A stretch of DNA of 23,102 nucleotides from positions 1 through 23,102 of IMG/VR virus record IMGVR_UViG_3300011115_000785, one strand, 5' to 3'. A program made the position numbers and the translations under genes. This document shows, piece after piece, positions 5,038 through 14,068 of this stretch. A model generated the notes under the pieces. That model made no database searches, was not told the origin of the DNA, and worked only from the letters and a program-made list of their open reading frames with translations. Each line of letters starts with the position of its first letter. Position 1 is the first letter of the stretch. Source of the stretch: a virus.

Positions 5038-6671
5038 GTAACGGTCTTAAGGTTAAAAAAAGAAGTGGTCACGTTGAACAAATAGATCTTGATAAGATGC
5101 ATGTGATGGTTGATGAGGCATGTAAGGGTCTTGCAGGGGTTTCTGCATCACAAGTTGAGATACAGTCTGGAATTCAGTTTTATGATGGCATTACAACTTC
5201 AGAAATTCAGGAGATTCTGATTCGTTCTGCATCAGATTTGATTGATTTGGAACATCCCAACTATCAATTTGTTGCTGCTCGTCTGCTTCTCTTTGCAATT
5301 CGTAAGCAACTTTATGGAAAGATGCAGGAACTTCCACACTTGAATCAACATATTATGGACTGCGTTTCCGCAGAAGTTTATGATTCTGATGTTTACAATA
5401 AATATTCCAAGGAAGAGATTGATACTGTAAATTCCTTTATTCGTCATGATCGTGATTATCTGTTTACCTACGCAGGATTGCGTCAGGTAGTTGATAAGTA
5501 TCTTGTACAGGATCGCAGTAGTGGTGGAGTATATGAGACTCCACAGTTTATGTACGTTATGATCGCACTCACAATATTTGCGGAATATCCCAAAGAAACC
5601 AGACTTTCATACGTCAAGAGGTATTATGACGCAATCTCAAGACACCGAATCAACATTCCCACACCAATCATGGCAGGGGTCAGAACCCCCCTTCGTCAAT
5701 TTGCATCTTGTGTTTTGGTTGATGTTGATGACTCCCTCGATAGTATCTTTAGCAGTGATATGGCTATTGGCAGGTATGTCTCACAAAGGGCTGGTATCGG
5801 TATCAACGCAGGCAGAATTCGTGGCATCAACAGTAAAATCCGAGGTGGAGAAGTTCAGCATACAGGTGTTATCCCATTCCTCAAAAAGTTTGAGTCAACT
5901 GTTAGGTGTTGTACACAAAACGGGATTCGTGGTGGAAGTGCTACTGTCCACTTTCCAATCTGGCACCAAGAAATAAATGATATATTAGTTCTCAAAAATA
6001 ACAAAGGAACCGAAGACAATCGTGTTCGTAAGTTAGATTATTCAATTCAGATTAGTAAAATATTTTATGAAAGATTTATTCAAGATGGTGAGATTACGCT
6101 TTTCTCCCCGCATGATGTACCTGGACTATATGATTCTTTCGGAACAATTGAGTTTGATTGTCTCTACCTTGGATACGAAAATAACCCTAATGTTTCAAAG
6201 AAAACAATAAAGGCACAGGAACTTATTCTCAATCTTCTCAAAGAAAGAGCAGAAACGGGTAGAATCTATATTATGAATATAGATCACTGTAATACTCATA
6301 GTTCTTTTATTGATAAGATTGAGATGAGTAACCTTTGTGTTGCTGGTGATACTCAAATTACAATTGAGTTTTATTATGGAAAAGATTATGTAAGAAAAAC
6401 AATTAGCATCAAAAACTTGGATGGTTATATTGATGATCCAAACTATAAAGATCTAAAAGTTCTTTCTTACAATATTGAATCCAATCAAGAAGAATGGAAA
6501 CCAATTACTGCTTTTGCTGAAACCTCTCCAAAAGCAAAGGTAATGAAAATTACTGATGAAGAAAGTGGTAAGAGTATTGTGGTTACACCAGAGCACAAAG
6601 TATTCACAAAAAATCGTGGATATGTAATGGCAAAAGACCTAACCGAAACAGATGAGTTGGTAATCATCTAA
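5034..6671 (+). CDS. nrdA: Ribonucleotide reductase class Ia large subunit, N-half fused to split-intein N-fragment
   Basis: Residues 1-434 are the N-extein of NrdA, which reduces ribonucleoside diphosphates with NrdB. An ATP-cone covers about residues 5-95, and RQFASCVLVDVDDSLDSI carries Cys226, matching redox Cys225 of E. coli. After EMSNL the chain enters an intein at Cys435 (CVAGDTQI, block A). Block B is TPEH with His521. The frame ends LVII, so the intein N-fragment is 111 residues long and ends with its own stop. The partner half starts at 7399. The two must meet and trans-splice to make a 765-residue enzyme, near the T4 length. The sequence closely resembles the NrdA-1 type of split intein described from marine metagenomes ('fractured genes'). 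The start overlaps the primase stop. Confidence 0.95.
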   Translation: MSNGLKVKKRSGHVEQIDLDKMHVMVDEACKGLAGVSASQVEIQSGIQFYDGITTSEIQEILIRSASDLIDLEHPNYQFVAARLLLFAIRKQLYGKMQELPHLNQHIMDCVSAEVYDSDVYNKYSKEEIDTVNSFIRHDRDYLFTYAGLRQVVDKYLVQDRSSGGVYETPQFMYVMIALTIFAEYPKETRLSYVKRYYDAISRHRINIPTPIMAGVRTPLRQFASCVLVDVDDSLDSIFSSDMAIGRYVSQRAGIGINAGRIRGINSKIRGGEVQHTGVIPFLKKFESTVRCCTQNGIRGGSATVHFPIWHQEINDILVLKNNKGTEDNRVRKLDYSIQISKIFYERFIQDGEITLFSPHDVPGLYDSFGTIEFDCLYLGYENNPNVSKKTIKAQELILNLLKERAETGRIYIMNIDHCNTHSSFIDKIEMSNLCVAGDTQITIEFYYGKDYVRKTISIKNLDGYIDDPNYKDLKVLSYNIESNQEEWKPITAFAETSPKAKVMKITDEESGKSIVVTPEHKVFTKNRGYVMAKDLTETDELVII

Positions 6672-6675
6672 TATG

Positions 6676-6729
6676 ATAGGAAGTATAATTTCTTTATTTT
6701 ATAAATAGTTATGAGATTACACTTCCTAT
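6676..6729 (+). promoter_or_regulatory. Hairpin with late promoter in its loop, controlling the endonuclease start
   Basis: Arms 6676-6692 and 6713-6729 pair over 17 positions with one A-C mismatch and one G-U pair (outer arm ATAGGAAGT with ACTTCCTAT). The loop holds TATAAATA at 6700-6707. A late transcript would begin near 6713, losing the left arm, whereas read-through transcripts from nrdA keep the whole hairpin, whose right arm ends one base before the endonuclease ATG. This is the layout known for T4 I-TevI, where early translation is blocked by a hairpin and late transcription bypasses it. Confidence 0.75.
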
Positions 6730-6730
6730 A

Positions 6731-7405
6731 ATGAAAACATATATTGTTTATAAAATTACTAATAAGAAAAATGGAAAGTTTTATGTGGGAAAAACTGAAT
6801 ACTCATTAGAACATCGTTGGAACCGTCATTTATCATCGGCAAGAAATGGGTCAAAATTTAGATTTCATTCTGCGATTAGAAAATATGGTGAAGATTGTTG
6901 GAACTTGTCTGTGATTGAAACATACCAAACTGAAGATGAAAATTTAATCAACCAAAAAGAAACACACTTTATCAAACTCTTTGAGAGTGATACTAAAAAA
7001 GGATATAATGCCACTTCAGGTGGAACTGGTGGATGGATGCTTCCCAGATGCTCGCAAGAGATTCAGGAAGAGTGGAGAAACAATATTTCTGTAAGAACTA
7101 CTGGTTCCAACAATCCAAACCATTCTGGATATACTGATGAGCAACTTATAGAGGTTGGAGTGAAGTTTTCTGAAAAATATGGATTTATTGGTGGAAGAAA
7201 AAGAATAGTTGAGTTTGCTCTTAACGAATTGAATATAAAGTTTCCAAAACATTTTTCTAAAAATAGATTTGGAGGAAACCATCAAAACTTTTATAAATGT
7301 ATTGAAGAGCAGACTGGATTGGTGTATAATTCATATTATAGAGACGAAACTCAAAGAACACTTGCTAAACAACTTTTAGAACAAAACAGGAGAAAAAAAT
7401 GCTAA
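6731..7405 (+). CDS. Free-standing GIY-YIG homing endonuclease between the nrdA halves
   Basis: The 224-residue protein starts with a complete GIY-YIG nuclease domain: YIVYKITNKKNGKFYVGKT (residues 4-22), Arg29/Arg32 in LEHRWNRHL, and the likely metal-binding Glu77 in NQKETHF. GYNATSGGTGG follows, and the C-terminal half is a presumed DNA-binding part with a helix-rich, Lys/Asn-rich sequence. It probably cuts an unfractured nrdA allele and so spreads the split-intein insertion, although the target is not shown by the sequence. It has no Shine-Dalgarno sequence of its own; a hairpin with an internal late promoter ends one base before the ATG. Its stop overlaps the start of the nrdA C-half (ATGCTAA). 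Fractured genes often carry Vsr-like endonucleases, so a GIY-YIG enzyme here is noteworthy. Confidence 0.88.
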   Translation: MKTYIVYKITNKKNGKFYVGKTEYSLEHRWNRHLSSARNGSKFRFHSAIRKYGEDCWNLSVIETYQTEDENLINQKETHFIKLFESDTKKGYNATSGGTGGWMLPRCSQEIQEEWRNNISVRTTGSNNPNHSGYTDEQLIEVGVKFSEKYGFIGGRKRIVEFALNELNIKFPKHFSKNRFGGNHQNFYKCIEEQTGLVYNSYYRDETQRTLAKQLLEQNRRKKC

Positions 7406-8493
7406 AGATTGAATATCTTGAAGAAGAAATCCCAGTCTATGATATTACTGTAGAAGGAACACATAATTTCTTTGCAAATAATATTCTGGTCCATAATTGT
7501 CAAGAAATCACATTACCAACAGTTCCGATTCAGCATATTGATGAGACCACAGGAGAAATCGCACTGTGTATTCTTTCTGCCATCAATGTGGGTAAAGTCA
7601 AGTCCGATGATGAACTCGAAGAACTTTGTGAACTTTCTGTCCGTGCTCTCGAAGAACTGATAGATTATCAAAAGTATCCTGTACTGGCAGCAGAAGTTGC
7701 CACAAAGGCACGGAGATCTCTTGGAATCGGTTATATTGGTCTGGCACATTATCTTGCTAAACTGGGGTTCAAATACGACTCTCAAGGAGCATGGGATGCA
7801 GTTCACGGACTTTCAGAATCCTTTCAATATTTTCTTCTCAAGGCATCAAATAAAATTGCTCAAGAAAAGGGATACTGTGAATCTTTTGGACGCACCAAGT
7901 ATTCTCAAGGTCTACTCCCGATTGATACCTATAAGAAAGATGTGGATGAAATCTCTTCAGTCAAACTTCAACACGATTGGGAAGGACTCAGAGCATCGAT
8001 TCTGAAACACGGTCTCAGACACTCCACACTGTCCGCACAGATGCCCTCCGAGAGCAGTTCTGTGGTATCTAACGCAACTAATGGTATCGAACCTCCTCGC
8101 GGATTTCTGTCCATCAAGAAATCCAAGAAGGGTCCACTGAAACAAATTGTTCCTCAATACGCAACACTTAAAAATAATTATACGTTGCTCTGGGATATGA
8201 AAAGTAATGATGGATATATTAAAATTGTTGCGATGATTCAGAAATTTTTTGACCAGGCCATCTCTGGAAACTGGTCTTATAATCCAGAAAATTATCCAGA
8301 TAATGAAGTTCCTGTAACTGTGATAGCAAATGATTTTTTGACTACATATAAGTATGGGTGGAAGACTTCATATTATCAAAATACATACGACATTAAAACT
8401 GATGAGGTTGAGGAGTCAAAACCCACTTTGTCTGAATTGGTTGACGAATTAAGTAAAGTAGTAGAAGGGGAGTGTGAATCCTGTGCAATTTAA
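7399..8493 (+). CDS. nrdA: Split-intein C-fragment fused to the C-half of NrdA
   Basis: Residues 1-33 are the intein C-fragment: block F PVYDITVEGTHNFFANN and block G ILVHN with the terminal His32-Asn33. Cys34 is both the +1 splicing nucleophile and the start of the C-extein (CQEITLPT); it matches Cys439 of E. coli NrdA, the thiyl-radical residue. Cys57 in GEIALCILSA matches Cys462. The radical-transfer pair is Tyr325-Tyr326 in SYYQNT, and the C-terminal redox pair is Cys359/Cys362 in GECESCAI. The start is supported by AGGAG at 7388-7392, six bases upstream, and it overlaps the endonuclease stop. All catalytic residues of a working enzyme are therefore present once the two halves are spliced. 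The gene ends within the start region of nrdB. Confidence 0.95.
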   Translation: MLKIEYLEEEIPVYDITVEGTHNFFANNILVHNCQEITLPTVPIQHIDETTGEIALCILSAINVGKVKSDDELEELCELSVRALEELIDYQKYPVLAAEVATKARRSLGIGYIGLAHYLAKLGFKYDSQGAWDAVHGLSESFQYFLLKASNKIAQEKGYCESFGRTKYSQGLLPIDTYKKDVDEISSVKLQHDWEGLRASILKHGLRHSTLSAQMPSESSSVVSNATNGIEPPRGFLSIKKSKKGPLKQIVPQYATLKNNYTLLWDMKSNDGYIKIVAMIQKFFDQAISGNWSYNPENYPDNEVPVTVIANDFLTTYKYGWKTSYYQNTYDIKTDEVEESKPTLSELVDELSKVVEGECESCAI

Positions 8494-9661
8494 AATTCTT
8501 AATGACGGAGAACACACGCAAATACAAGGAATGACTGTTTTTAATACGGAACAAGTCAATACTAAAAAGCAACCAATGTTCTTCGGTAAACCTTTGGGAA
8601 TTCAAAGGTATGATTCATATAAATATCCAATTTTTGATAAATTAACAACTCAGCAATTGGGGTATTTTTGGAGACCTGAAGAGATCTCCTTACAAAAAGA
8701 TCGTGGAGATTATCAAACTCTTCGTCCTGAGCAAAAACATATTTACACTTCAAATTTGAAGTATCAAATTATGCTTGATAGCGTACAAGGAAGAGGTCCA
8801 GGTATGGCATTTCTTCCATATTGCTCTTTACCAGAACTGGAAGCATGTATGACTGTCTGGGAGTTCATGGAGATGATTCATAGTCGTTCTTATACGTACA
8901 TAATCAAAAACATATACTCAGATCCATCTGAAGTGTTTGATACAATTATTACTGATGAGCGCATTCTTGAACGCGCTAAGAGTGTTACAGAATCATATGA
9001 TGATTTTATAAACGCAGCACAAAATTATGGATCATCCAATCAATGGATGTATCAACTTGAAGAAGTTCCATCAGCAAAAGAGACTCTCAATGATGTCAAA
9101 AGAAAGATATACAGAGCAGTTGCAAATGTTAACATTCTTGAAGGTATTCGGTTTTACGTTAGTTTTGCTTGTAGTTTCGCATTTGGTGAACTTAAGCTTA
9201 TGGAAGGATCAGCTAAAATCATTAGCCTTATCGCAAGAGACGAAAATCAACATCTAGCACTTACTCAAAATATTATGAATAAGTGGAGAGAAGGTGATGA
9301 TCCCGAAATGCAACAGATTGCAAAGGAAGAAGAAGAGTGGGTTTATGCAATGTTTGATCGTGCCGTCAACGAAGAGAAAAGATGGGCTGACTATCTTTTC
9401 AAGGATGGTAGTATGATCGGATTAAACGATAAACTTCTTCAGCAATATGTTGAGTGGATTGCAAACCGAAGACTCAAGGCAATAGGATTAAAACCGCAAT
9501 ATGATATTGCAGCAAACAACAATCCACTTCCTTGGACTCAGCACTGGATTTCCTCTAAAGGACTTCAGGTGGCACCCCAGGAAACGCAGGTACAGTCTTA
9601 TGTGGTTGGTGGAATCAAACAAGATGTGAAAAAAGACACATTCAGCGGTTTCAAACTTTAA
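8483..9661 (+). CDS. nrdB: Ribonucleotide reductase class Ia small subunit
   Basis: This subunit carries the di-iron tyrosyl radical used by NrdA. Counting from the GTG at 8483, Asp99 (LDSVQG), Glu130 and His133 with radical Tyr137 (MEMIHSRSYTYII), the Glu of NILEGIRFY, and the Glu/His of RDENQHLAL match the E. coli ligands. The start is uncertain. GTG at 8483 has AAGGGGAG ten bases upstream and overlaps nrdA by 11 bases; GTG 8474 is too close to that site; ATG 8531 best fits the usual N-terminus (TVFNT...PMFFG) but has a poorly spaced ribosome site. The C-terminus ends in KKDTFSGFKL, the peptide that normally docks on NrdA. The last 36 bases of the gene are repeated at 10746, after an inserted endonuclease module. 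Confidence 0.93.
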   Translation: MQFKILNDGEHTQIQGMTVFNTEQVNTKKQPMFFGKPLGIQRYDSYKYPIFDKLTTQQLGYFWRPEEISLQKDRGDYQTLRPEQKHIYTSNLKYQIMLDSVQGRGPGMAFLPYCSLPELEACMTVWEFMEMIHSRSYTYIIKNIYSDPSEVFDTIITDERILERAKSVTESYDDFINAAQNYGSSNQWMYQLEEVPSAKETLNDVKRKIYRAVANVNILEGIRFYVSFACSFAFGELKLMEGSAKIISLIARDENQHLALTQNIMNKWREGDDPEMQQIAKEEEEWVYAMFDRAVNEEKRWADYLFKDGSMIGLNDKLLQQYVEWIANRRLKAIGLKPQYDIAANNNPLPWTQHWISSKGLQVAPQETQVQSYVVGGIKQDVKKDTFSGFKL

Positions 9662-9662
9662 T
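9625..9662 (+). repeat. nrdB 3'-end direct repeat, copy 1
   Basis: This 38-base stretch is the end of nrdB and its stop codon. It is repeated at 10746-10783 with a single C/T difference (37 of 38 identical). The two copies bracket 1,083 bases holding an endonuclease and a passenger gene. Confidence 0.95.
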
Positions 9663-9668
9663 TATGCT

Positions 9669-9719
9669 TAAGACTGAAGTTGAATTTTATATAAATAATA
9701 TTGAACAACTTCAGTCTTA
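9669..9719 (+). promoter_or_regulatory. Hairpin with late promoter in its loop, before the second GIY-YIG gene
   Basis: Arms 9669-9682 (TAAGACTGAAGTTG) and 9706-9719 (CAACTTCAGTCTTA) pair perfectly over 14 bp. The 23-base loop contains TATAAATA at 9690-9697. A late start near 9703 would drop the left arm. The right arm ends two bases before the ATG at 9722, so a full-length read-through RNA from nrdB would bury the start region. The design is the same as at 6676-6729, but the arm sequences differ. Confidence 0.8.
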
Positions 9720-9721
9720 TA

Positions 9722-10336
9722 ATGAATAATTATATTCTTTACTATTACTTAAGGGAGGACTTTAGTTCTCCCTTTTATGTTGGTTATGGAAAACCAAGAA
9801 GAATAAATGCAAAGCATTTGAGAAGTAATGGAGCAAACTTATTACCACCAAGAGAAAGAAGGTGGATTGTAAAATCTGAATTATCTAAAGAAGAAGCAGT
9901 AGAGTTGGAAATAAAACACATAGCACTTTGGAAAAGAGAGTGTGATGGAGGAGTTTTATTAAATCAAAATCTTGGTGGAGAGGGAAAACCTGGAGGACAA
10001 AAAACAAAAGGATTTGGCGGAAGAAAGCATAGTGAAGAAGCAAAAAGAAAAATAAGTGAAAAAGTTACTGGTAAAAATAATCCAAGATATGGTATTAGAT
10101 TATCTCAAGAAATAAAAACTAAAATAAGTGAAAATATAACACCAAAGTTTGGTAAAGACAATCCAAACTCTAAAACTTGGAAGATTGTCTCTCCAGAAAA
10201 TAAAGAGTATATTATTACTGGGACATTAAAGGAATTTTGCGAGTCTCAAAATATTTCATATGCAACTATGTCGGCCGCAATCAAATATAATAGAAAAGGA
10301 CCAAGAAAAAATGGATGGGGTATTGAGAAAGTTTAG
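9722..10336 (+). CDS. GIY-YIG homing endonuclease inserted after nrdB
   Basis: From the ATG at 9722 the protein has 204 residues. A GIY-YIG domain opens with NNYILYYYLREDFSSPFYVGYGKPRR, here shown only in part by its YILYYYL and FYVGYG motifs. A Glu in AVELEIKHI is the likely metal ligand. Two NUMOD3-type DNA-binding repeats follow (GRKHSEEAKRKISEK and YGIRLSQEIKTKISEN, each ending near a K-N-P or D-N-P turn), then a NUMOD1-like helix-turn-helix (TLKEFCESQNISYATMSAA). A TTG farther upstream lies inside the regulatory hairpin, so the ATG is preferred. The element sits between nrdB and a copy of its 3' end, the mark of insertion at that site. The stop overlaps the following passenger gene in another frame. 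Confidence 0.87.
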   Translation: MNNYILYYYLREDFSSPFYVGYGKPRRINAKHLRSNGANLLPPRERRWIVKSELSKEEAVELEIKHIALWKRECDGGVLLNQNLGGEGKPGGQKTKGFGGRKHSEEAKRKISEKVTGKNNPRYGIRLSQEIKTKISENITPKFGKDNPNSKTWKIVSPENKEYIITGTLKEFCESQNISYATMSAAIKYNRKGPRKNGWGIEKV

Positions 10337-10724
10337 AATATCACTACCAGAAGATGAGTGTGTGATAAAACTTCAAGAGTATTGTAAGTTTTCTCATATT
10401 CTATTAAAAGTCTATGTAGTATCTAAACCTATATGTGCCGACGCAAACTGCCACAATAATGTAAATCATTATGTGAATACCTATGGTGGAGAAAAAATAA
10501 GTGGATATTATTTAATCACAGATGTTGATGATGAAACTTGTGGATGTGCAATATATCATAGTATTTGGAAAAATACTTATGGGGATTTGATAGATATAAC
10601 ACCATTTAAAGATGGTAGAGAATATAATATATTTTCTGTTTTGGATACTGTAGAATATTACTCTGGAGTTGTTTATGACGGAAAGGTTTATAAAATATTG
10701 GAATCAGGACTTAATATTATTTAA
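10311..10724 (+). CDS. Passenger protein in the endonuclease insertion, possible Cys-His-Asp papain-like fold
   Basis: This is a 137-residue protein of unknown function. The ATG at 10311 lies inside the end of the endonuclease gene (26-base overlap in another frame); TTG at 10323 is an alternative start. Ordered motifs suggest a catalytic triad: Cys47 in ANCHNNVNHYV, His83 in AIYHSIWKN, and Asp95 in LIDITPF. A Cys...His...Asp series with a 'CH.N' helix and 'H-S-x-W' strand is seen in papain/transglutaminase-like folds, so a hydrolase or transferase is possible, but I cannot name a family. Extra cysteines (41, 77, 79) could bind metal. It lies wholly inside the repeat-bounded insertion after nrdB, so it travels with the endonuclease. 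Confidence 0.65.
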   Translation: MDGVLRKFRISLPEDECVIKLQEYCKFSHILLKVYVVSKPICADANCHNNVNHYVNTYGGEKISGYYLITDVDDETCGCAIYHSIWKNTYGDLIDITPFKDGREYNIFSVLDTVEYYSGVVYDGKVYKILESGLNII

Positions 10725-10745
10725 TTTTTTAACGCAACAAAATAG

Positions 10746-10783
10746 TGTGAAAAAAGACACATTTAGCGGTTTCAAACTTTAAT
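10746..10783 (+). repeat. nrdB 3'-end direct repeat, copy 2
   Basis: This copy repeats the last 36 bases of nrdB plus the next two, with one synonymous C-to-T change (TTC to TTT in the Phe codon). It is followed directly by what looks like the original nrdB terminator, so it probably marks the old gene end from before the insertion. Confidence 0.95.
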
Positions 10784-10796
10784 ATCAAGTATAGAT

Positions 10797-10824
10797 AGGG
10801 GAGTAATCAACACTCCCCTTTTTT
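10797..10824 (+). terminator. Rho-independent terminator, probably the original nrdB terminator
   Basis: The arms AGGGGAGT (10797-10804) and ACTCCCCT (10812-10819) make a perfect 8-bp stem with loop AATCAAC, followed by a T run to 10824. It lies 14 bases after the duplicated nrdB end. Confidence 0.93.
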
Positions 10825-11684: not shown

Positions 11685-11708
11685 AGAAATACTTTCTTCC
11701 ATTAAAAT

Positions 11709-11716
11709 TATTTATA
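11709..11716 (-). promoter_or_regulatory. Late promoter motif for the minus-strand endonuclease
   Basis: TATAAATA reads on the minus strand (TATTTATA on plus). A start about six bases downstream falls near 11703. Unlike the other endonuclease genes, only a weak all-AT inverted repeat surrounds it. Confidence 0.6.
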
Positions 11717-11722
11717 CTGAAA

Positions 11723-11989
11723 ATGTTTTTAAAATTTATTAAAAAAATCCTAAAGCACTTGACTGAAGAACCAAGTGCTCCTATAGTGGAGAAACCTGCT
11801 TTAGAAAAGACTACTATGAACGCAATGACTGAAGATATTGTTTCCCATATAAGAGAATGGTCGATTGAAAGAGTTGCAGATAAAAGTGTTTCAAGAGAGG
11901 ATGCTCGTGCGGTTCTTGAGGAGTTTTACGAGTGGATTGAACCTGAAGACAAAGAAATAGAAATTGTCTCTCTTGAACCAGATTCTTGA
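11723..11989 (+). CDS. Hypothetical phage protein (88 aa)
   Basis: The product has a basic N-terminal helix (MFLKFIKKILKHL), a Pro/Glu linker, and an acidic helical C-terminal part (SHIREWSIERVADKSVSREDARAVLEE split around residues 40-66, ending in an acidic tail). An internal ATG at 11818 could give the C-terminal helical domain alone. No family is recognised. It stands divergent from the minus-strand endonuclease (21 bases apart). Its stop TGA lies within the -35 hexamer of the following promoter. Confidence 0.6.
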   Translation: MFLKFIKKILKHLTEEPSAPIVEKPALEKTTMNAMTEDIVSHIREWSIERVADKSVSREDARAVLEEFYEWIEPEDKEIEIVSLEPDS

Positions 11990-13362: not shown

Positions 13363-13384
13363 GTCTTATAAATAACTATAAGAC
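13363..13384 (+). promoter_or_regulatory. Hairpin overlapping a late promoter, before the PD-(D/E)xK endonuclease
   Basis: GTCTTATA (13363-13370) and TATAAGAC (13377-13384) form a perfect 8-bp stem with loop AATAAC. TATAAATA spans 13367-13374, in the upper left arm and loop. A late start near 13380 would remove the left arm. It is a smaller version of the devices at 6676 and 9669. Confidence 0.65.
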
Positions 13385-13395
13385 ATTTGGATATT

Positions 13396-13830
13396 ATGAG
13401 AGAACATCATACTAAAAATAAAGGAGATTTGGGAGTTTTAAAAGCACAACTTGATTTATATGAAAAAGGTTATTTAATTCTTACTCCACAAACTGAGCAT
13501 TCTCCGTTTGACCTTGTTGGATATAAGAATGGAAAATTTTTAAGAATACAAGTTAAATACAGGACTGCGAAAGATGATAAAATAGTAGTCGCATTTAGCA
13601 CCTGTTGGGCGGATAAAAATGGCACTCATACTCAAGATTATGATAAAAATGAAATTGATGTAATGTGTATATACTGTCCTGATACTGATAAGTGTTATTA
13701 TGTAAATCCAAAAGATTGCGATAAATGTTTTAATTTAAGATTGTCCACCCCTAAAAATAATCAAAAAATTGGAATACATTTAGCTGAAAATTATATCGAA
13801 ATTCCGTCGATACTTGACACCATCTCATAA
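13396..13830 (+). CDS. I-Ssp6803I-like PD-(D/E)xK homing endonuclease
   Basis: The 144-residue protein matches the I-Ssp6803I group of homing endonucleases (PD-(D/E)xK fold), known from a group I intron in a cyanobacterial tRNA-fMet gene. Visible features are KNKGDLGVLKAQLDLYEKGY, then TEHSPFDLVGY with Asp39, and FLRIQVKYR with Gln52-x-Lys54, the metal-binding core. Four cysteines (MCIYC...KCYY...DKCF) might bind zinc. ATG 13396 is preferred; TTG 13387 is a possible earlier start. Here the gene is free-standing, between tRNA-Arg and the tmRNA, with no intron seen around it. A hairpin with a late promoter precedes it, as for the GIY-YIG genes. Its end contains the -35 box of the tmRNA promoter. 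The target may be a tRNA or tmRNA gene. Confidence 0.85.
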   Translation: MREHHTKNKGDLGVLKAQLDLYEKGYLILTPQTEHSPFDLVGYKNGKFLRIQVKYRTAKDDKIVVAFSTCWADKNGTHTQDYDKNEIDVMCIYCPDTDKCYYVNPKDCDKCFNLRLSTPKNNQKIGIHLAENYIEIPSILDTIS

Positions 13831-13845
13831 ATCGTGCTATAAATA
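13814..13845 (+). promoter_or_regulatory. Combined sigma70 and late-type promoter for the tmRNA
   Basis: TTGACA (13814-13819) is 18 bases before TATAAA (13838-13843), and the same bases begin the late motif TATAAATA (13838-13845). Both would start RNA near 13850-13851. The -35 lies inside the endonuclease gene. Confidence 0.75.
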
Positions 13846-13849
13846 TTGA

Positions 13850-14068
13850 CGTTCAAGAGGATAAGAATTCTGATGCTTCGGACAGCGGTTCGACTCCGCT
13901 CATCTCCATTGCACGGGGATGCCAAGGTTTCGACGGGGTATAAAGGTTTTATCTGTTGACGGAACAAACAAACAAACGCAAACAAAATTGTTGCATTTTC
14001 GAGGACTTCTGTACCTTCTTTGGTATAGAACTCTGACGAATCTCAAGGGGGCATTCGTGCCCCTTTTC
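13850..14068 (+). ncRNA. ssrA: Circularly permuted two-piece tmRNA (transfer-messenger RNA)
   Basis: The acceptor piece comes first, as in cyanobacterial permuted genes. T-arm AGCGG-TTCGACT-CCGCT (13884-13900) leads to CATCTCC and discriminator A (13901-13908). Six bases (13909-13914) separate it from the coding piece, which opens GGGGATG (13915-13921) and pairs fully with CATCTCC. The third pair is G13917-U13905, the G3-U70 alanine identity element. The D-arm region has GGTTTCGACGGGG. P2 is 13860-13871 with 13942-13953 (two mismatches). After the tag frame a P5-type hairpin surrounds its end, and a candidate pseudoknot lies at 14036-14063, with ACGAAT/ATTCGT and GGGGC/GCCCC interleaved. This second structure is strained and may form only partly. 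The 5' end is inferred from the promoter; the 3' end is approximate. CCA is not encoded. Confidence 0.9.
13978..14028 (+). other. tmRNA tag-peptide reading frame
   Basis: The resume codon GCA at 13978 opens the peptide ANKIVAFSRTSVPSLV, ended by TAG at 14026-14028. The Prochlorococcus tag known to me is ANKIVSFSRQTAPVAA: the same 16-residue length, 9 identical positions, and an aligned proline. The last three residues differ: SLV instead of VAA, which is the part recognised by ClpXP-type proteases. Confidence 0.88.

Follow-up and report, generated by a model that had tools for sequence, protein, structure and literature searches.

Hairpin around a late-promoter motif probably silences a putative homing-endonuclease gene behind nrdB until late infection

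Why does a perfect inverted repeat close around a late-promoter-like motif immediately before the start codon of an endonuclease gene? The arrangement occurs in the window, the whole stretch of 23,102 bases analysed here, whose nrdA–nrdB region has its nearest counterparts in phages of Synechococcus and Prochlorococcus. On the plus strand, a 5′ arm at 9669–9682 (TAAGACTGAAGTTG) and a 3′ arm at 9706–9719 (CAACTTCAGTCTTA) are 100% complementary over 14 pairs and enclose a 23-nt loop, which holds the late-promoter-like TATAAATA at 9690–9697. Two bases (9720–9721) separate the end of the stem from the ATG at 9722–9724. The repeat finder and the sequence itself give these features exactly as a preliminary description of the locus had claimed. 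When the two copies may be separated by up to 80 nt, the window contains 14 inverted pairs, of which the 14-bp repeat is the longest perfect one. The RNA of 9650–9760 is predicted to fold at −24.6 kcal/mol, compared with −11.9 ± 2.7 kcal/mol for shuffled versions (z −4.7; 0 of 200 equal or better). By itself, TATAAATA is mildly enriched in the window, with 6 occurrences found versus 2.8 expected; what is non-random is the layout, not the motif alone.

The hairpin belongs to an insert behind nrdB, the gene of the ribonucleotide reductase small chain (8474–9661, plus strand; Pfam Ribonuc_red_sm, 4e-58). As delimited by the empty sites of two relatives (L245 and L248), the insert spans 1,121 bp (9662–10782, plus strand); it comprises, besides the hairpin device and the endonuclease gene, another ORF and a duplicate of the nrdB 3′ end. 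In both empty relatives the nrdB stop leads directly into tatcaagtatagatagg, found in the window after this duplicate, and tatcaagtatag and an intrinsic terminator come immediately after that stop. The corresponding terminator of the window lies at 10798–10824 (plus strand), and the sequence between nrdB and the inserted gene contains none. The nrdB terminator has thus been displaced past the new genes, so nrdB transcripts should read through them.

The inserted gene (9722–10336, plus strand) matches NUMOD3 (1.4e-10) and the homing endonucleases of phrog_314 (9.4e-15), has a GIY-YIG-like start as judged by eye, and is linked by blastp to SegE-type GIY-YIG genes (family F0). Pfam yields no GIY-YIG match for it, one relative (L105) matches LEM-3_GIY-YIG at 2.3e-8, and the AlphaFold model is poor (mean pLDDT 51.8); on these sequence matches we regard the product as a putative homing endonuclease. 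The second ORF of the insert (10311–10724, plus strand) matches phrog_37148, of unknown function, over 10314–10724 (1.1e-6). The first copy of the nrdB 3′ end lies within the gene (9623–9661, plus strand), and the second, 38 bp long (10745–10782, plus strand), forms the downstream edge of the insert. Such a second copy flanks the insert in 12 of 47 loci examined at an alignment score of at least 16 (L008, L018, L023, L028, L032 and others); in several relatives this copy apparently extends over the beginning of the following gene, which would leave both genes whole.

How would the hairpin act on a gene placed in this way? It is quite likely, in our estimation, that the device is a switch for late-only expression of the inserted gene, like that of T4 I-TevI or Aeh1 mobE. 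With the gene inserted between nrdB and its terminator, each nrdB transcript would read through it, and only these read-through transcripts would carry the 5′ arm. On such RNA, as folding predictions suggest, the 14-bp stem two bases from the AUG would shut the ribosome landing site. Late in infection a gp55-type RNA polymerase would, judging by the motif, start at TATAAATA within the loop, giving an mRNA whose 5′ end we take, from T4 promoter spacing, to lie at about 9703. Because it starts inside the loop, this late mRNA would lack the 5′ arm; the 3′ arm would be part of a leader without partner, and the ~19-nt leader would stay open. The hairpin thus probably silences the endonuclease gene until late infection, and cutting by the endonuclease would, by analogy with T4, be postponed to that stage. 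Predicted opening costs are consistent with this reading: the 9722 start region requires 15.5 kcal/mol on the read-through RNA versus 5.5 kcal/mol on the late mRNA. Family medians for read-through and late RNA are 8.9 and 3.0 for endonucleases compared with 4.9 and 3.5 for others, the median cost difference is 6.8 in endonuclease families (n = 21) and 1.0 in others (n = 56; p 9e-8), and a difference of at least 5 kcal occurs in 12/21 versus 5/56. With the stem beginning 7 nt past the nrdB stop, ribosomes that terminate there may open it. Inspection of the 9706–9719 arm revealed no Shine–Dalgarno-like word, so the T4 mechanism is not literally transferable; the cyanophage stem would cover a start region free of Shine–Dalgarno (SD) sequence instead of hiding one. 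Of the 150 sites of the GIY/SegE family, 5 carry an SD-like word, in contrast to 16 of 23 in T4.

Is the hairpin maintained in relatives? From IMG/VR we retrieved 80 relatives, 79 of them with the start and upstream sequence and together representing 40 distinct upstream regions. TATAAATA, with predicted late-promoter activity, is kept in 77 of the 79, and a stem of at least 8 bp enclosing NATAAATA in 75; the four exceptions have shortened stems (L008, L023) or changed promoters (L063, L064). Among 24 chosen sequences of the nrdB-GIY family, 91% of cells pair, compared with 21–51% for slid partners, 7 of the 14 pairs show two-sided changes, and the covariation score was reached by 0 of 500 shuffles. 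Another GIY family, found behind nrdB in L285, has a related loop and exchanged arms. Ten sequences drawn from both GIY families pair in 98.9% of cells, with two-sided changes in 3 of 9 pairs, and a single pair appears across the two families as C-G, A-U, G-C and G-U. Selection preserves pairing rather than bases, and the earlier suggestion that the layout was kept while its bases changed is borne out. The layout is also kept in 58/65 members of the intein-GIY family, to which the hairpin at 6676 belongs, and 55/76 of the SegE family, of which L230 and L235 lack the 5′ arm; neither family shows two-sided changes.

Does the device mark endonuclease genes in particular? Clustering at 60% identity gave 186 clusters downstream of TATAAATA, 47 of endonucleases and 139 of other genes. 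A stem of at least 9 bp encloses the motif in 15 of the former versus 4 of the latter (p 2.8e-7), leaving 32 of the 47 endonuclease clusters without a device. The preliminary description had held that an equal frequency before ordinary genes would speak against it, and this is not what is seen; the alternative it raised, repeated origin of the layout, agrees with the mutually unlike arms of the 15 endonuclease clusters, which point to repeated origin or replacement. Families give a similar picture. The loci fetched by then, most of them chosen for holding endonuclease genes, provided 488 distinct TATAAATA sites with an ORF start within 60 nt, in 85 protein families. The median stem p, from single-base shuffles of the flanks, is at most 0.06 in 7 of 14 Pfam-recognised endonuclease families versus 3 of 66 others (Fisher 1e-4), and in 8 of 21 versus 2 of 59 (2e-4) once classes assigned by eye are added; F4 is the only one of the seven by-eye families to reach this value. 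Pfam covered 80 of the 85 family representatives at first (with the 14 endonuclease families) and three more later, all except F55, an ORF inside nrdB, and F83. No stem is evident in the big structural families (median p 0.57–0.75).

A strict search required a stem of at least 9 bp, NATAAATA in the loop and, within 13 nt, an ATG opening an ORF of at least 80 aa. Applied to six cyanophage records including S-SM2 and B23 (~1,100 ORFs of at least 80 aa; ~1.6 kb of S-SM2 lies outside the scan), it found 8 distinct devices, compared with 0 in ten dinucleotide shuffles. Nuclease genes of GIY type account for four of these cases and those of HNH type for three, the one in L414 being judged by eye only; the eighth precedes a psbD-like gene. 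Three of the seven nuclease cases come from the query family. S-SM2 has no such endonuclease by Pfam and no device. The psbD-like gene, on the minus strand of L434 near 19339, is preceded by a 9-bp stem whose loop contains GATAAATA and whose 3′ arm contains AGGAGG; it is possible that this is an SD-hiding switch of a photosynthesis gene, or it may be chance. Near 12070 in L012 and 9717 in L206, endonuclease genes apparently (by eye) stand behind tRNA genes; their hairpin is downstream of TATAAATA and therefore within the late leader itself. Taken together, covariation, unrelated arms and the excess before endonuclease genes support the earlier notion of selection on the device itself.

The window contains further devices, and all four, the fourth being weaker, precede endonuclease genes. 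Device 2 (6676–6729, plus strand; arms 6676–6689 and 6716–6729, TATAAATA at 6700–6707) stands before the GIY-YIG gene at 6731–7405, and its arms are indeed unlike those at 9669–9682 and 9706–9719, as described before. Device 3, on the minus strand (11685–11730), has an imperfect stem (11719–11730 with 11685–11696) and TATAAATA at 11709–11716, ahead of a SegE-type GIY-YIG gene whose start we take as 11684. Device 4 (13363–13384, plus strand), a weak 7-bp hairpin overlapping TATAAATA at 13367–13374, follows tRNA-Arg and precedes a PD-(D/E)XK gene (13396–13830, with its ATG at 13396). Devices 3 and 4 were absent from the preliminary description. The PD-(D/E)XK gene sits between tRNA-Arg and a permuted cyanobacterial tmRNA, here phage-borne amid tRNA genes (13837–14063; Rfam RF01851, RF04321). 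At 6471–7500 a split intein breaks nrdA, with the GIY-YIG gene, and thereby device 2, between its halves. Fractured genes with split inteins and free-standing endonucleases were reportedly described by Dassa in 2009; the nrdA arrangement resembles those systems, a likeness that bears on device 2 only.

How does the device relate to known systems? The kind of switch is already known from T4: late-promoter hairpin switches are in print for T4 I-TevI, I-TevII, I-TevIII and segB and for Aeh1 mobE (PMC2988022, PMC3014915). According to the available parts of these papers, the stem there is confined to early or middle read-through RNA, the late promoter lies inside it and the endonuclease gene is directly downstream. 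The window device likewise has arms flanking a late-promoter sequence, that sequence in the loop and a putative homing endonuclease downstream. However, the stems of I-TevI, II and III, as described in those same parts, hide a consensus Shine–Dalgarno ~8 nt before the AUG, whereas the window device has no SD, its stem ends two bases before the AUG, its arms are unrelated, and the cyanophage layout also occurs before HNH, Endo VII-like and PD-(D/E)XK genes. As its stem hides no Shine–Dalgarno, we consider the device a variant working alike and not a strict member of the T4 type.

The available text of PMC3014915 also reports start-site hairpins for the ordinary T4 late genes e, soc and 49. Gene e resembles our device in that TATAAATA lies towards the upstream side of the stem that closes the start site; unlike the inserted gene, however, e, soc and 49 are there ordinary, non-mobile late genes with an SD. 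When T4 is ranked by the same opening-cost measure, two sites before the lysozyme gene e come first, followed by the apparent I-TevII ORF at 45638, and the layout is present at 8 of 23 T4 sites, with gene e first. Our strict stem scan of T4 finds gene e and misses I-TevI, so strict counts are conservative. Because ordinary T4 late genes such as e use the layout and also score, it is not endonuclease-specific everywhere; the endonuclease bias holds for these cyanophages.

As far as the available parts of PMC2984593 go, NATAAATA is the reported late promoter of cyanomyoviruses, and g55 is present in all cyanophages sequenced by 2010. The same source and PMC3037559, again in part, describe a cyanophage free-standing homing endonuclease near psbA with an antisense RNA, CfrI (Zeng 2009; Millard 2010). 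That system resembles ours in joining a cyanophage endonuclease gene to proposed RNA-level control, and differs in that the control is an antisense RNA; no start-site hairpin with a late promoter is described in these parts. The word "hairpin" does not occur in the available portions of PMC2984593, PMC3037559 and PMC10448857, and we found no published description of the switch in cyanophages in the open-licence literature, a scope that leaves absence unproven. New are the cyanophage spread, the SD-less form, the recurrence over several nuclease classes and a compound form.

In the compound form, the stem encloses an intrinsic terminator together with the late promoter. It is present in the isolates B23 (L451), MA01 (L452) and S-CREM2 (L453), and S-SRM01, ACG-2014f, RN05-S and S-N03, examined likewise, have no compound stem. 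We had supposed stems to be absent where a terminator stands upstream of an endonuclease gene (p 0.108 under the stricter rule, 0.023 under a relaxed second rule) and abandoned this idea: once the 5′ arm may lie as far as 130 nt upstream, long stems around terminator and promoter emerge in 6 of the 10 seemingly stemless clusters with a terminator (L029, L088, L405-11321, L412, L413, L430+3279). Allowing a distant 5′ arm, a stem is found in 18/47 endonuclease clusters versus 2/139 others, with 0 and 1 in shuffled controls. A stem of at least 9 bp surrounds NATAAATA in 44 of the 63 distinct upstream regions obtained from relatives of the B23 gene, and the compound stem was located in 59 of 77 upstream regions, with 37 distinct arms. 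Own arms pair at 99.1% of the nine core positions, compared with 48% (maximum 57%) when swapped between loci. For the small hairpin around the 5′ arm, pairing with its own flank likewise exceeds that after swapping (7.41 versus 6.05, maximum 6.47 in 300 swaps); specific pairing of this hairpin's 5′ strand with the start region was rejected (own 4.62 bp, swapped 4.48, maximum 4.74).

Across 538 loci (5.15 Mb) there are 58 distinct compound elements, 46 from the B23-gene scan and 12 from loci outside it, versus none in one shuffled set; 57 precede one NUMOD3/GIY-type cluster, and one precedes L430+3279, which has no Pfam match. Compound devices with stems of 8–15 bp were seen in L088 near 1361, L405, L412, L413, L394, L029, L430 (+3279), L451–L453 and many of L461–L540. 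No Rfam family was recognised in the 8 compound loci scanned: the elements of L461, L478, L484, L513 and L029 gave no gathering match, and L451, L452, L453 and L455 gave a single far sub-threshold match (E 1). L029 and L053 carry closely similar genes with exchanged arms. L473 and L498, two devices on one contig, have common arms; on account of this pair we dropped avoidance of cross-talk as an explanation for differing arms within a genome, although arms do differ on several contigs. Tentatively, and with considerably more doubt than belief, we propose that the terminated 3′ UTR of the upstream gene, presenting the 5′ arm in a hairpin loop, may act as a trans antisense RNA against the endonuclease leader, that read-through RNA may lock in cis, and that only late mRNA would escape, making this a modular, fast-changing lock.

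Could the hairpin of the window be something other than a late-only switch? The mild enrichment of TATAAATA alone might suggest a chance inverted repeat in AT-rich DNA. This reading is refuted by the controls (z −4.7; 8 devices versus 0 in ten shuffles) and by conservation and covariation, and retains next to no probability. Strong hairpins between two genes may also be terminators or RNA-processing or stability elements. We consider this very unlikely for the present one, as TATAATGAATAA and no T run directly follows its 3′ arm, which is not what an intrinsic terminator would show, the late promoter lies within the stem in 75/79 relatives, and the stem mostly ends at or near the start codon.

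At the DNA level, the endonuclease might bind the palindrome as an operator and repress its own late promoter, as I-TevI does, and a palindrome would likewise show two-sided changes. The I-TevI operator over its own late promoter resembles the homing site in 15/20 positions, according to the available part of PMC2988022; our hairpin shows no operator-like resemblance to the empty nrdB site, the best 20-nt match being 14 with a shuffled mean of 13.05 and maximum of 16. Compound arms, moreover, differ between the closely similar endonucleases of L029 and L053, which would be odd for a protein binding site. An excess of G-U pairs over A-C mismatches would favour RNA over DNA pairing, but the strand test counted 17 versus 10 columns, a margin too narrow to decide between the two. 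Overall, we regard the operator as unlikely. That the 5′ arm acts in trans, with the mRNA of the upstream gene as antisense to the endonuclease leader, is suggested by the compound form, in which a terminator separates 5′ arm and promoter and a second covarying hairpin holds the arm in its loop. The common arms of the two devices on one contig (L473 and L498) argue against it, and the window device, which contains neither a terminator nor a second hairpin, needs no more than folding in cis; for this locus we hold trans action to be highly improbable. A late-only switch that folds in cis is the reading we prefer.

In conclusion, cyanophages make recurrent use of a switch familiar from a few T4-type endonucleases, and its unrelated arms before several unrelated nuclease classes suggest that selection acts on timing itself. 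The layout provides a sequence test for mobile endonuclease genes, including some missed by Pfam, and its dozens of distinct arm pairs are natural variants for studying RNA closure of SD-less starts. Given that the lock folds in cis, why should it carry a terminator and a second hairpin as well? If the proposed trans role is true, the compound form would represent a previously undescribed class of RNA whose arms are free to change while matching.
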